Shown here in pieces: positions 113-35,271 of a DNA stretch of 64,000 nucleotides (the stretch's first letter is position 1; each line of letters begins with the position of its first letter). Source of the DNA: Anaerolineales bacterium (GTDB lineage Bacteria; Chloroflexota; Anaerolineae; Anaerolineales; Villigracilaceae); contig JAFGCG010000087.1 of assembly GCA_016932715.1 (NCBI GenBank), positions 1 to 64,000 on the forward strand, given 5' to 3'. The translations under genes were made by a program, and so were the position numbers. The notes beneath the pieces were generated by a model that ran no database searches, was not told the DNA's origin, and saw only the letters and a program-made list of their open reading frames with translations.

Positions 113-1288
113 ATGGCCAGGATCAAACTTCACAATGTCAGCCTGACGTACGATGCCCCGCTGCATGAGCCGGTCCACAAGCTGTTCGCGACCCGGAAGG
201 AAAGCATTCAGGAAGACCTGCCTGTCGAAACGAAGGCGGGGATCACTGCGCTGGATCATGTGAATTTGACCGTTCCCCATGGACAGATCTTCGTTGTTGT
301 GGGTCCTTCAGGTTGTGGAAAGAGCACCCTGCTGCGGGTCATCGCGGGGATCGAAAAAAATTACACCGGGACGATCTCGTATGATGGGGAGGATATGCAG
401 AGTGTTCCTCCCGGAGATCGCTATATCGGCATGGTCTTCCAGAACTATGCACTTTATCCAAACTTTACCGGGGAAGGGAATTTATCCTTCTTCTTCCGGA
501 TGCACAAGATCGGTAACGAGGAAACCCGCGAGCGCATTCGCTACACGTCTGAGTTAATGGGGATCGGGTTCAAGGAGCTTTTACCGCGCCAGCCCGGGAC
601 ACTCTCCGGCGGCGAAAAGCAGCGCGTGGCGATCGCGCGCGCCATTGTCCGTGCGCCGCGCCTCTTCCTCTTCGATGAGCCGCTCTCCAACCTGGACGCA
701 AAGCTGCGCGCCCAGACGCGCTCTGAGATCAAACGTTTGCTCCACCGTTTTGCGATCACCAGCCTTTACGTCACTCACGACCAGGTGGAAGCCATTGCCC
801 TGGCGGACCAGATTGTGATCATGCACGAAGGGAAAATCGAACAGGTGGGCACCTACCAGAATTTGATGGAGCATCCTGTCAATCTGTTTGTCGCGGGTTT
901 TTTAGGGCTGCCGCCGATGAGCCTGTTTACGGGCGGCTTGATTTCCGGAAACAAGCTGGTTCTGGATGATTACCTGATTCCGCTGCCGAAACTGATCGCC
1001 TCTCTCGTTCAGGACGGGCAGGCGGTGACGCTGGGGCTGCGGCCGGAAGCGGTCAGCGTCTCAGCCGACTTGACTTCCACCAGCGGGATCCAGCTGCGGG
1101 GCGAAGTGGAAGCGTTTGAATCCGACTACGTTCATCACCTCCAGATCGTTCATCTCTGCACCGGCTCCTGGCGCTATGCAGGTCTTTGTCCCCTTGCGCT
1201 TAAACTTCGGGTCGGGCAGCTGGTTAAAGCACACATCGATTCCGACCATTTGTATTTCTTTGAGACGAAGTCTGGCTTGCGTCTATAA
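113..1288 (+). CDS. ABC transporter ATP-binding protein, MalK/UgpC-like
   Basis: This is the cytoplasmic ATPase of a carbohydrate-type ABC importer, about 391 residues. The nucleotide-binding domain shows Walker A GPSGCGKST (about 64-72), the Q-loop VFQNYALYP, the signature LSGGEKQR (about 164-171), Walker B LFLFDEP and the switch YVTHDQ. A C-terminal TOBE-like region (GLRPEAVSV) is typical of MalK proteins, which bind regulators or sense sugar there. I chose the ATG at 113 because AGGAG sits six bases upstream; the frame is open further upstream only through repeat sequence. Residues about 14-45 form an extra segment between the first strand and the A-loop that most MalK proteins lack. No permease or binding protein adjoins it, so it may be a shared ATPase serving several transporters (inference). 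Confidence 0.88.
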   Translation: MARIKLHNVSLTYDAPLHEPVHKLFATRKESIQEDLPVETKAGITALDHVNLTVPHGQIFVVVGPSGCGKSTLLRVIAGIEKNYTGTISYDGEDMQSVPPGDRYIGMVFQNYALYPNFTGEGNLSFFFRMHKIGNEETRERIRYTSELMGIGFKELLPRQPGTLSGGEKQRVAIARAIVRAPRLFLFDEPLSNLDAKLRAQTRSEIKRLLHRFAITSLYVTHDQVEAIALADQIVIMHEGKIEQVGTYQNLMEHPVNLFVAGFLGLPPMSLFTGGLISGNKLVLDDYLIPLPKLIASLVQDGQAVTLGLRPEAVSVSADLTSTSGIQLRGEVEAFESDYVHHLQIVHLCTGSWRYAGLCPLALKLRVGQLVKAHIDSDHLYFFETKSGLRL

Positions 1289-2026
1289 GCCTTGCGCTGC
1301 TTTCCACCGGGTGATCAGCATTTTCACCCTCACACGAACCTGAGCTTCCGCGCCGCCCAGCGCCCAGGCTGAGCGCGTCGCTCGTTTGGTTTCCTCGTCC
1401 ATGTCGATGAAATCATTCCATTCCTCAGCGATCCATTCTTCCATTTCGCTGGGCGTATCCCAGGTGTAGTAGTACGGAAAGAATTCTTCCCGGTCACGGA
1501 GGAACCACCCATTTCCTGAAGCCTGTATAACGGCGCGATTTGCCGCTTCGTCATCTGCCAGCGGGTTCGGAAGATCCAACACTCTGCCTGTTTCGTGGAC
1601 CTCCTGCGCGCTGATCACTTCGATCGGCCAGCGGTCCGAAACGGGGCGCAGGTCGATCAGGATGCCATTAGGCGCAAGCACTCTGCGGATTTCGCGCAAG
1701 GCATGGACCATGCCCTTGTGTTCAATTCATCAGAGCGACCACGCCAGGATGGCAATATCGAATGTCTCTTTCGCAGATGGCAAGTGCTGTGAATTGGCGC
1801 ACGCGAAATGCACTTTGTTTTGCTGGTCGGAGGGTCTATCAACAGCTGCGACGCGCAGGGCATCCCGGTCGGGATCGACGCCAATGGTCGTCTGCGTGCT
1901 TTTAGCATACTGCCATGTCAGGCGTCCCTCGCCGCAGCCGATTTCCAGCACGCGTTTGCCTGTGAAGTCTGCGAACCCATGCAGATACTTTGTTTCGTTG
2001 CGTTCAGTGTCTTTTTGGAGGGTCAT
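1283..2026 (-). CDS. Class I SAM-dependent methyltransferase with tandem in-frame TGA codons (candidate Sec-Sec protein)
   Basis: A single reading frame of 248 codons runs from ATG at 2026 to TAA at 1283, interrupted only by two adjacent TGA codons at 1732-1727 (residues 99 and 100). The N-terminal part has methyltransferase motif I VLEIGCGEG (26-34) and motif II IGVDPD. The part after the TGAs continues in the same frame with the usual ALREIRRVLAPNGILIDLRP strand and helix. The TGAs directly follow FDIAILAWSL, the motif IV region beside the substrate pocket. A hairpin of eight base pairs with loop GUC begins 10 bases after the second TGA, so its loop lies in the bacterial SECIS window. Read with selenocysteine, the product is 247 residues. 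It lies 39 bases downstream of the anion transporter, probably in one operon. The substrate is unknown. The alternatives are a decayed gene or two sequencing errors, both less likely because the frame is otherwise intact. Confidence 0.75.
1698..1732 (-). promoter_or_regulatory. Candidate bacterial SECIS element for the methyltransferase TGA-TGA
   Basis: On the minus strand the TGA-TGA (1732-1727) is followed by a stem with 5' arm 1716-1709 and 3' arm 1705-1698. All eight positions pair, including one G-U. The three-base loop is G-U-C (1708-1706), so the unpaired apical G that SelB requires is present. The loop starts 18 bases after the second TGA and 21 after the first. The loop region GGUC resembles that of the E. 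coli fdhF element. It was folded by eye. Confidence 0.6.
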
Positions 2027-2065: not shown

Positions 2066-3856
2066 TTATAAGGGCCAGAAGATAAGGATGAGAGGGATGG
2101 CGACAACAGCAATGATAATTTCCAGAAGCAATCCCATGCGCCAGTAATCTCCAAACTTATAACCGCCAGGTCCCATCACCAGGGTGTTCGACTGATGCCC
2201 AATGGGCGTCAGAAAGGCGCACGAGGCGCCAATAGTGATCGCCATGAGAAATGGATCAATGGATACATCCATCCCCTGCGCAATGCTGATCCCGATGGGT
2301 GCCATCAGAACAACCGCGGCAGCATTGTTCACCAGGTCGGAGAGGAACATGGTTGCCACGAGGATGATGACCAGGGTAACTGCGGCGGGGATCCGGTCGG
2401 AGATCTGCAGGATGGAGTTCGCGATCAGTCGTGCCCCGCCGGTTGTCTCCAGCGCGCTGCCCACCGGGATCATCGCGCCGAGCAGGATGATGATGGGCCA
2501 ATCCACTTTTTCATATGCCTCCTGGAGGGAGACGAGTTTGGTCATCACCATTAGCAGGACGGCCGCGACGACAGAGATCTGGACGGGAACGAAGCCCAGT
2601 GCCGCGGCGGCCAGGGCGGAGATAAAGATCAGGAGCGCCAGGACCATCTGGCGGGGTTGTCCAATGTGCAGATCGCGTCCCGCTAACGGCAGACATCCGA
2701 GAGTCTCGATCACCCTCTTCAGGGTCTCTGTATGGCTTTGCAGAAGCAGCACATCGCCGTTTTGAAAACGGATGCGGTCCAGGCGCCTTCTCAGAATCCT
2801 GCCCTGCCGCGAAATGGCAAGCAGGTTTACTCCATACTTTGCCCGCAGATCGAGGCTCCGGGCAGTGTTGCCTGTCATGAGCGAATCGGGCATGACCACT
2901 GCTTCCAATAAGGCAACCTCGTCCGATTCCAGATCCTCCCGGTGGATCTCCTCGCTCCCCACCAGTTCGAGCCCGGATATGCCAGCCAGTTTCTTGATGT
3001 TCTCCACGCCCGCGCTGACGATCAGGATGTCATCTGCCTGCAGTTTCGTGTGCGCCGAGGGTTCCATGCGCCGCTCGCTGCCGCGTACCAGCCCGATGAT
3101 CAGGATCTCCGCTTTTGAAAAGTCGTCCACTTCGCTCAATCGTTTTCCGTTCAACCTGGATTCTTTGGATAATCGTACCTCAGTGATGTAGTTCTCGATG
3201 TCGAACAGATCGTCAGATGAGTCTCTTGCGCGGCGCGAGGGGATCAGCCTCCAGCCGATCAGCACAATGAATAATAATCCTGCAACGGCGATGCCGCCAC
3301 CGACTGGCGTGAAATCGAACATGCCGAACGGTTCCGCGCCGGTCCCTTCCCGGAAAGACGCGGCGATGATGTTTGGCGGTGTCCCGATCAGCGTTGTCAT
3401 CCCGCCAAGTAATGATGCAAAGGCAAGGGGCATCAGCAGGGACGAAGCCGGGATTTGTTTCCTGCGCGCAAGTTGAAGCACCACAGGCAATAATAATGCC
3501 AGCGCCCCCACATTGTTCATAAACGCGGATAACACTGCGACGAGCCCGGTCAGGGCAGCCAGCTGGATCGTGATCCCGCCCTTCAAACGCGACAGCCGTT
3601 CCCCGATCATGTCAACGACGCCTGAGTTTTGCAGACCTCGGCTTAGCACAAGCACCGCAGCGACGGTCACCACCGCCGAGTTGCTAAAGCCTGTGAAAGC
3701 GTGTTCCACCGGGATAAGCCCTGTCAGCGTCACGATCAGCAGAGCGATCAGCGCGACCAAATCATAGCGCCAGCGGCCCGTGATGAATAATATCAGGGTC
3801 AATAACAGCGTTCCAAAGATGATCCATTGCTCGGTGGTTATTATGTGCATTATCAC
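2066..3856 (-). CDS. DASS/SLC13-family sodium:anion symporter with two TrkA-C domains
   Basis: This is a polytopic inner-membrane transporter of about 596 residues from the divalent anion/sodium symporter (ArsB/NhaD) superfamily. These proteins move sulfate, dicarboxylates or similar anions. The two membrane halves each carry the family hairpin motifs: MNNVGALALLLP and IGTPPN in the first, and NNAAAVVLMAP and PIGHQSNTLV in the second. Between them, about residues 210-400, lie two cytosolic RCK_C (TrkA-C) domains that probably bind a regulatory ligand. The start is GTG at 3856, overlapping the dehydrogenase stop by four bases (GTGA). ATG at 3850 is the alternative. The substrate cannot be told from sequence. 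Confidence 0.87.
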   Translation of the reverse strand: MIMHIITTEQWIIFGTLLLTLILFITGRWRYDLVALIALLIVTLTGLIPVEHAFTGFSNSAVVTVAAVLVLSRGLQNSGVVDMIGERLSRLKGGITIQLAALTGLVAVLSAFMNNVGALALLLPVVLQLARRKQIPASSLLMPLAFASLLGGMTTLIGTPPNIIAASFREGTGAEPFGMFDFTPVGGGIAVAGLLFIVLIGWRLIPSRRARDSSDDLFDIENYITEVRLSKESRLNGKRLSEVDDFSKAEILIIGLVRGSERRMEPSAHTKLQADDILIVSAGVENIKKLAGISGLELVGSEEIHREDLESDEVALLEAVVMPDSLMTGNTARSLDLRAKYGVNLLAISRQGRILRRRLDRIRFQNGDVLLLQSHTETLKRVIETLGCLPLAGRDLHIGQPRQMVLALLIFISALAAAALGFVPVQISVVAAVLLMVMTKLVSLQEAYEKVDWPIIILLGAMIPVGSALETTGGARLIANSILQISDRIPAAVTLVIILVATMFLSDLVNNAAAVVLMAPIGISIAQGMDVSIDPFLMAITIGASCAFLTPIGHQSNTLVMGPGGYKFGDYWRMGLLLEIIIAVVAIPLILIFWPL

Positions 3857-33372: not shown

Positions 33373-35271
33373 TCATTTCTTTCTCAGTCTTCTGAAATCT
33401 CCATCCCGCATCGTGAACCCGATTGCATCGAGGTGCTCGAGCAGCGCCTGTGCATATTTGCGGCTGGTATCGAAAAGCGTACGCGTCTCCGCCAGCGTGA
33501 GGCTGCCTCTCTGCCGGATCTCTTTTTCGATCCTGTCCACCATTAAATCATAGTCGTGCCGGCGGAAAATGACATCCAACGAAACTGTAATTAACTCATT
33601 CAATTCGATCAGTGCATTCAGGAGTTCTGCTCCGACCTCGGCTTCACATTCCTTGACGCTGGGCGGACTAAATGGATTCTGTTCGAATTTTCGCATCAGT
33701 ACCCGGACCCTGGCCTGCTGGCTGCTGTCGAACGCGATCTCATGTTCGGGCTGCGCGAGCAGGGTGGAGTGATCCGTCAGCCGGTGATCCGCAAGCAGTC
33801 TTCTGATAACAGCATTGAATGCCTGCGGCGAGAGCTTGAGCCGGCTTTTGAGTTCTTCGCGCGGGATGCCGCGTCGCAGCGGATAATTTTGGTGATAAGC
33901 CTCGACGATTTGCAGGGTTTTGCCCTGCAATGCGTTCCAATGCGGCAGGGCGATCACCAGCAAATCGCTCCCGATGGCCGGCGCGTCTTCTTCAAGGGGC
34001 ATCAATGAACCCGCCTCCAGCAATTCCTTCAACGCGGTTTCAGCATTCTCTGCTTCCAGCCGTGAGCGGGCAACGATTTCCTTGACGCTGGCGATATGCA
34101 AAGCCAGGGCGGCTTCGAACAATACATCGGCAGGCGTGCCCTGGATCAGAGATTCAAGGGATTGCAGGATTTTCTTATCGAAGCGTTTGTGCCGGCCCTT
34201 GGGCTGGTGATCGACGATGACGCCGCCCCCCAGCGTTTCACTGGGCGAGGGGCGCCGCAGGATGTACCTGTCGCCGCGCACGGTCACAACGGGGTCGCGC
34301 AATTCGAGCTGGACCCAGCCTTCTTCGCCCGGGTTGAGTTCTTCCGCTCCGAGCAGGCGCAGGATCGCAATGGTCTCGCTCGCGCCGACGAAAAATTTCA
34401 CCTCGCTATTATGTTTGAGTGCCGATGAAACGTCCTTGAGCAAACGGAAGCGCGCATCGACTCTGCGCGTCGGTTGATATTGTTTTGGATGGATGACCAC
34501 TTCACCGCGCTGGATGGATTCTGTATCGACGCCTGAAATATTTATGGCAGTTCGCGAGCCCGGCACGGTTCTTTCCTCTTTCTTCTTATGTGTTTGCAGC
34601 CCGCGCACGCGGCCTCTCTGCCCGGACGGGACGATCTCCACTTCATCGCCGAGCGCCAGATGACCGTCGAGCAGCGTCCCGGTGACGATGGTGCCGAAGC
34701 CGCTCATGCTGAAGACGCGGTCGATCGGCAGGCGCGGGCGATTGAGATCGAGGCGGGCCGGTTTTTGCTGCAAAAGAGATTCGAGAGTAGAGAGCAGCGA
34801 ATCGAGACCGGTCCGGGTTTTGGCAGAGACGCGCACGATGGGCGCGTCTCTCATGACGGTTCCGCTCACAGCCGCGCGGATGTCCGTTTCAACGAGATCC
34901 AGCCAGGCGGGGTCGGGAGCGAGGTCGGTTTTCGTCAAAACGATGATCCCCGCGGGGATTTGTAATAGATCCAGGATGGCGAGGTGTTCCCGCGTTTGCG
35001 GCATGACGCCTTCATCGGCGGCAATGACCAGGAGCGCAGCATCGATGCCCCCGATGCCAGATAACATGTTCTCGATGAAGTCGCGATGACCGGGCACATC
35101 CACAATGCCGATCTCTTCCCCGTTTGGAAGAGTCAGCCACCCGAAGCCGAGTTCGATCGTCATCTCGCGCCTCTGTTCCTCCTTGAGACGGTCTGGATGC
35201 GTCCCTGTCAAGGCGGCGATCAACGTGGATTTTCCGTGGTCAACATGACCGGCTGTACCAATAACATGCAT
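33373..35271 (-). CDS. selB: Selenocysteine-specific translation elongation factor SelB
   Basis: SelB brings selenocysteyl-tRNA to UGA codons by binding a SECIS hairpin in the mRNA. The 632-residue protein has the G-domain motifs GHVDHGKST (8-16), DVPGH (58-62) and TKTD (113-116). It then has the elongation-factor beta-barrels (MSGFGTIVTGTLL) and a C-terminal set of winged helices ending with TLFDTSRKYAQALLEHLDAIGFTMRDGD, the SECIS-binding domain of bacterial SelB. The length is normal. selA, selD and tRNA-Sec are not in the window. Its presence supports reading the in-frame TGAs at 1732-1727 and 19455 as selenocysteine. Confidence 0.93.
   Translation of the reverse strand: MHVIGTAGHVDHGKSTLIAALTGTHPDRLKEEQRREMTIELGFGWLTLPNGEEIGIVDVPGHRDFIENMLSGIGGIDAALLVIAADEGVMPQTREHLAILDLLQIPAGIIVLTKTDLAPDPAWLDLVETDIRAAVSGTVMRDAPIVRVSAKTRTGLDSLLSTLESLLQQKPARLDLNRPRLPIDRVFSMSGFGTIVTGTLLDGHLALGDEVEIVPSGQRGRVRGLQTHKKKEERTVPGSRTAINISGVDTESIQRGEVVIHPKQYQPTRRVDARFRLLKDVSSALKHNSEVKFFVGASETIAILRLLGAEELNPGEEGWVQLELRDPVVTVRGDRYILRRPSPSETLGGGVIVDHQPKGRHKRFDKKILQSLESLIQGTPADVLFEAALALHIASVKEIVARSRLEAENAETALKELLEAGSLMPLEEDAPAIGSDLLVIALPHWNALQGKTLQIVEAYHQNYPLRRGIPREELKSRLKLSPQAFNAVIRRLLADHRLTDHSTLLAQPEHEIAFDSSQQARVRVLMRKFEQNPFSPPSVKECEAEVGAELLNALIELNELITVSLDVIFRRHDYDLMVDRIEKEIRQRGSLTLAETRTLFDTSRKYAQALLEHLDAIGFTMRDGDFRRLRKK

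Follow-up and report, generated by a model that had tools for sequence, protein, structure and literature searches.

A methyltransferase gene with two adjacent in-frame TGA codons

The stretch of DNA analysed here, referred to as the window, comprises 64,000 nucleotides from an Anaerolineales bacterium of the phylum Chloroflexota (GenBank assembly GCA_016932715.1, contig JAFGCG010000087.1, positions 1 to 64,000). Its minus strand carries a gene for a class I S-adenosylmethionine (SAM)-dependent methyltransferase with two adjacent in-frame TGA codons, a hairpin of the bacterial selenocysteine insertion sequence (bSECIS) type just downstream of them and, further away, selB, which encodes the selenocysteine (Sec)-specific elongation factor (Table 1). 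Comparison with relatives suggests that both UGAs are very probably read as Sec, and that the gene represents a selenoprotein family which is apparently undescribed so far.

Re-reading of the sequence confirmed what had been described earlier from the letters alone (hereafter, the sequence-only reading), namely a frame of 248 codons including the final TAG, which is interrupted only by TGA TGA at codons 99-100, immediately 3' of the segment FDIAILAWSL. That the same frame encodes a normal class I methyltransferase on both sides of these stops is borne out by Pfam matches to Methyltransf_25 (65.6 bits, gathering cut-off 27) and Methyltransf_11 (63.2 bits, cut-off 21.2), both of which span the TGAs. 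The identity between the window protein and that of locus L117 is 0.70 past the TGAs and 0.66 ahead of them, and the source genome holds one close copy of the gene. TGA is also an ordinary stop in the window, because four of the 18 open reading frames (ORFs) checked end in it, including selB and a gene with an ADH domain.

Table 1. Coordinates of the methyltransferase gene, its TGA codons, the hairpin and selB in the window
Feature	Position	Strand	Remarks
Class I SAM-dependent methyltransferase gene	1283..2026	-	ATG start, TAG stop; 247 residues with both TGA as Sec
First in-frame TGA (putative Sec99)	1730..1732	-	TGA or Cys codon in 148/148 distinct segments
Second in-frame TGA (putative Sec100)	1727..1729	-	TGA or Cys codon in 148/148 distinct segments
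bSECIS-type hairpin	1698..1716	-	Stem 1716-1709/1705-1698, apical loop GUC 1708-1706; covariation and published bSECIS model
selB, Sec-specific elongation factor	33373..35271	-	TIGR00475 match 33382-35265, 342 bits, cut-off 242.25

Conservation of the Sec/Cys pair among relatives

Homologues were sought in 396 genomes of the class (E <= 1e-15) and in 400 genomes of the phylum, overlapping the class set (E <= 1e-20; one place, G578:C18, was left out). The class search found a homologue in 46 genomes at 48 places, all of which were fetched and aligned; writing U for Sec and C for Cys, the pair is UU at 40 of these loci, UC at seven and CU at one, with no other state. Chance is excluded as an explanation since this pattern holds at 48 of 48 class loci. 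The phylum search gave 53 places in 47 genomes, 52 of them with at least one in-frame TGA; the sole match without TGA (G631:C113, locus L213, 76 bits) was rejected as a separate methyltransferase with no CC pair. Profile searches round a Terriglobia-titled and an ANGP1-titled centre found the family in 4/199 and 13/43 genomes, respectively, with TGA in every match. A DNA-pattern scan of named genomes, in which Sec or Cys was allowed at both codons, returned at least 119 stretches, and the 80 loci examined among the matches listed comprise 79 relatives (UU 65, UC 10, CU 4, CC 0) and a chance match that is no relative (L085). Neither a related-locus search from the single window protein nor a search of a plasmid collection for the family gave a match.

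Pooling these results yielded 175 loci, which reduce to 148 distinct 66-nt segments with UU in 117, UC in 25, CU in six and CC in none, so that in-frame UGA codons align with Cys codons of homologues at either position. The sequence-only reading had proposed that Cys at these positions in homologues would support Sec, and that unrelated residues at both would speak against it; only Sec or Cys is found, though never as a pure Cys-Cys pair. The 94 segments for which a protein or profile search supplied a locus divide into UU 75, UC 17, CU 2 and CC 0, and on a tree of 144 of the 148 rows the state of the pair changes 19 times, never to CC. No Cys-Cys orthologue was found in the class and phylum genomes, in the 199 and 43 genomes of two other phyla or among the DNA-pattern matches listed; a weak Cys-Cys relative could escape, because the first-look stage in most of the class and phylum searching scored just six candidates per genome.

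Judged by record titles, relatives that retain the UU pair belong to several bacterial phyla. The titles are mostly Chloroflexi, Chloroflexota, Anaerolineae or Anaerolineales, and further ones name Sulfopaludibacter, Terriglobia, Blastocatellia, ANGP1, Armatimonadetes, Proteobacteria and Actinomycetota. The draft bins behind some of the non-Chloroflexota titles may be mixed; one Solirubrobacterales-titled bin (L142) probably is, because the gene stretch printed for it matches that of an Anaerolineales record (L090) letter for letter. For alignment, three row sets were used, each together with the window: 38 of the 47 further loci of the class (A1), 44 of these 47 (A2, without L027 and L031, in which 9 bases are inserted past the hairpin, and without L040, which has the same segment as L034) and 60 of the 79 named loci (A3). 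Two genomes hold two members each: the two UC genes of G148 lie some 5 kb from each other (L008 and L035; G148:C16), and G377 has a UU gene and a CU gene on separate contigs (L021 and L039). The residue after the pair is Met in the CU members L071, L107, L120, L039 and L065 and Ile in the CU member L203, and varies in the UC members.

A covarying hairpin downstream of the pair

The stem of the hairpin consists of eight pairs, one of them G-U, and its GUC loop lies 21 nt past the first TGA and 18 nt past the second; the eight pairs, the GUC and the 18-nt distance are as the sequence-only reading had them. The bSECIS model, as given in a 2026 review (PMC13188914), specifies a loop of 3-9 nt with G in the first two positions, a stem of 4-16 bp, a spacing of 16-37 nt and a minimum free energy (MFE) of at most -7.5 kcal/mol; the window hairpin agrees with it in its 3-nt loop and in both of its spacings. 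Among the 148 distinct segments, 147 reach the MFE threshold and 147 have a loop starting with GU. Five contiguous pairs are formed in 25 of 25 UC genes and five of six CU genes, and in 93 of the 94 segments traced to a protein or profile search.

The hairpin is kept by compensatory change. The first base of a Gly/Ser codon and the wobble base of an Ala codon combine as GC in 102 segments, AU in 44, GU in one and AC in one; the Ala wobble base is T in 1/102 cases with first base G and in 43/44 with first base A, while no association of this kind is seen at the remaining Ala codons of these genes (T/(T+C) of 0.23 in the G group and 0.20 in the A group). Independent contrasts on supported branches (n = 7) gave 6.5 in the same direction and none opposite, with a median p of 0.016. 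Over 45 aligned rows, the cells of seven stem pairs are 98.7% paired; shuffling gives 94.6%, with none of 500 shuffles reaching the observed value, and sliding the stem gives no more than 59.7%. Both stem arms are replaced together in the distant members L206 and L208. Conservation of the stem in relatives, the lack of which the sequence-only reading had named as a refuting outcome, is thus seen through its covariation.

The UC genes rely on the 21-nt spacing alone and the CU genes on the 18-nt spacing alone. As they naturally have a single UGA while the hairpin keeps its position, each spacing seems to be sufficient by itself.

Selenocysteine machinery

The selB gene that the sequence-only reading had placed in the window is confirmed by its TIGR00475 match, and the genome contains all of selA, selB, selC and selD: a tRNA-Sec (70.4 bits, cut-off 47), selA (536.8 bits) and selD (357.9 bits, with an in-frame TGA) lie outside the window. 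At the selD locus (L063, G000:C76:45703-46638) one frame reads ACAGUASKL around the in-frame TGA, which looks like a UxxK Sec site. Across the class, selB scores above the cut-off in 314 of 396 genomes, and a selB match is present in 43 of the 46 family-bearing genomes, the weakest at 4.8e-88 (table counted by eye). A selA gene above the cut-off is found in seven of the 11 genomes behind outlying loci.

Predicted fold and position of the pair

A structure model built from 61 sequences (mean predicted local distance difference test score, pLDDT, 95.9; predicted template modelling score, pTM, 0.91) predicts a methyltransferase fold, in which residues 99-100 lie between a strand (89-95) and a helix (103-116). 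The top Foldseek match among those listed is TleD (PDB identifier 5gm1; E 1.3e-14, template modelling score about 0.5). The top VIA-align match among those listed is 1xxl, with a Z-score of 21.8 and a root mean square deviation of 5.7 over 204 aligned residues, and 5gm1 follows at Z 21.2. Many methyltransferases match at Z 17-22, in line with a Rossmann-like methyltransferase fold.

In profile alignments, the SLUU of the window protein corresponds to SLHH of RebM (His140-His141, counted by hand; PDB identifier 3bus), SLHH of AtmM (6uv6) and SLCH of TleD (5gm1). We take His140-His141 of RebM to be catalytic residues that face the SAM pocket in known folds. We infer from the model and these alignments that the pair lies between strand 4 and the helix after it, where RebM-type enzymes have their active-site His-His.

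Comparison with known selenoproteins and methyltransferases

RebM, AtmM and TleD, the last of which also catalyses a cyclisation, share the class I fold but are natural-product O-methyltransferases without Sec. By score, the best NCBIfam match of the window protein is the corrinoid protein-associated methyltransferase CpaM (NF043040), whose model is matched at E <= 1e-10 by 55 of 61 family members; at 55.9 bits the window protein stays below the cut-off of 180. MduS (NF045649), the nearest family by name, combines a methyltransferase domain with two Sec residues, as tabulated in the 2026 review, but has a CxxU motif; against its 338-position model the window protein reaches only 29 bits of the required 380, over the shared methyltransferase core. 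The Sec-containing ArsM families, also class I methyltransferases, have a soft metalloid as substrate and a UxxG motif; the scores are 27.8 of 575 bits for NF041536 and 25.7 of 510 bits for NF041537, and no ArsM model comes near its cut-off among the matches listed. None of the 25 NCBIfam models among the matches listed reaches its cut-off with the window protein.

The 2026 review counts 119 families or subfamilies of prokaryotic selenoproteins (PMC13188914), and a UU motif is absent from its printed table; the families of Haft and Tolstoy (2025) were compared through that review and NCBIfam. Judged from listings, literature searching revealed no recognised bacterial Sec-Sec protein. The claim of the sequence-only reading that a Sec-Sec pair would be very rare thus stands for bacteria as tabulated in the review, but not without precedent elsewhere: the algal PDI_e has two consecutive Sec residues in a GUGUU motif and is called the first such selenoprotein by its authors (PMC7539508), which means that a Sec-Sec pair as such was already known. 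As portrayed there, PDI_e shares the consecutive pair with the window methyltransferase, but it is a eukaryotic protein disulfide isomerase served by a eukaryotic SECIS, whereas the window gene is bacterial, encodes a methyltransferase and has a single bacterial SECIS close by.

Two probable Sec codons and one hairpin: interpretation and alternatives

Three results of sequence comparison, namely the restriction of the pair to U and C, the covariation in the hairpin and the presence of the Sec machinery, support the proposal of the sequence-only reading that the TGA pair encodes Sec. With high confidence, we regard as the best overall explanation a new selenoprotein family of class I methyltransferases in which both UGAs are Sec, served by one hairpin, and the pair lies at the active site; here double Sec insertion and the active-site role of the pair are what we infer. 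Local bacterial SECIS elements are usually regarded as serving one UGA. SelB with Sec-tRNA would dock at the hairpin to decode the first UGA; following a single translocation, SelB would have to load again for the second, giving two loadings from a single hairpin. The resulting Sec-Sec (or Sec-Cys, or Cys-Sec) would most likely provide two soft ligands or nucleophiles beside the methyl group of SAM. Somewhat short of even is the chance we give to a fuller scenario, in which one bSECIS drives two successive SelB-dependent insertions to make the first bacterial Sec-Sec, a vicinal selenolate or diselenide centre at the site of methyl transfer that possibly serves the methylation of a soft element or compound and for which Cys-Cys is no substitute. 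That the substrate is a soft metalloid, metal or chalcogen compound is our guess, and a rather doubtful one.

Several observations weigh against this interpretation. Taken by itself the window hairpin is unremarkable (56 nt, z -1.53, with 13 of 200 shuffles folding as well), so the case for it rests on conservation; at the loci from the DNA-pattern scan, part of the hairpin was fixed by the design of the pattern. The hairpin of the CU gene L203 has an outer A-C mismatch and an MFE of -3.4, and fails the bSECIS model; it is perhaps a weakened or shifted SECIS. No bacterial precedent was found for re-loading of SelB at the next codon from one hairpin. Three of the 46 family-bearing genomes (G057, G109 and G186; 91, 73 and 64% complete) gave no selB at E <= 1e-40, and four of the 11 genomes behind outlying loci gave no selA; the selA-positive genomes behind L066 and L094 seem to belong to the same organisms as G109 and G057, respectively, because the local sequences agree. 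The nearest methyltransferases outside the family (L002 and L213) have gaps at the position of the pair, which makes its correspondence with the RebM His-His a matter of alignment. The neighbours in the window and at the 79 named loci offered no hint of the substrate.

The in-frame stop pair of a single draft genome resembles damage at first sight, and the TGAs might not be Sec codons at all if the gene were a pseudogene or an assembly error or if TGA were read in another way in this lineage. We give this almost no weight: the UU pair recurs in 117 distinct segments, which rules out pseudogene and assembly error since the same error cannot recur in more than 100 distinct genes, protein conservation runs on past the TGAs, the covarying hairpin fits a SECIS, and TGA retains its role as a stop in the window. 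It is also improbable, though less so, that one UGA alone is Sec while the other mostly terminates or takes another residue, giving a single-Sec enzyme or a selenium-dependent switch with a 98-residue fragment. One short hairpin for two codons would suit such an arrangement, and the UC and CU genes (31/148) indicate that one Sec is enough for a gene to be maintained. However, UU outnumbers the other states and extends from Chloroflexota to genomes titled Acidobacteria or ANGP1, a useless UGA should decay to Cys or to another codon while only Cys is seen, and both the 21-nt and the 18-nt spacing fit the SECIS model.

Sec-Sec could mainly be a redox element that, as a vicinal diselenide or selenosulfide, would switch or stabilise the enzyme without contacting the substrate; this is possible but on balance unlikely, and nearly as likely as the role of soft ligand or nucleophile beside SAM. 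The position of the pair, aligned with residues of RebM that presumably face the SAM pocket, and the lack of a partner cysteine or reductase fixed among the neighbours argue against it. It would be favoured by the exchange of Sec and Cys at either position, which leaves a dichalcogenide possible in UU, UC and CU alike, and by the majority of described prokaryotic selenoproteins being thought to be redox-related, as the review puts it (PMC13188914).

Under the preferred explanation of two Sec residues served by one hairpin, re-loading of SelB becomes directly testable, with the UC and CU genes as natural single-UGA controls. A conserved Sec-Sec at the active site of a methyltransferase, in a family where no Cys-Cys member was found, would call for chemistry beyond that of thiols. 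Gene callers stopping at UGA would split or truncate such genes, and the family has probably been missed in annotation because frame-based callers do so.

Gene neighbourhood

The methyltransferase looks like a stand-alone enzyme. Upstream of it in the window are a gene for a CitMHS/SLC13-type permease with TrkA_C domains (2066-3856, minus strand), which ends 40 nt ahead of the methyltransferase start, the ADH-domain gene and a uracil phosphoribosyltransferase gene. The neighbour clusters of the named loci (n = 79) do not include this pairing of permease and methyltransferase, and any one gene family occurs near 15 of these loci at most, the examples being uracil phosphoribosyltransferase and, by eye, a DUF1801-like family. 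The Pfam names of 16 diverse neighbours from 15 loci revealed no common theme. In an Armatimonadetes-titled record, a radical SAM protein (L131:1224-3260:-) stands beside the methyltransferase and has a LAGLIDADG-like domain match, a possible intein.
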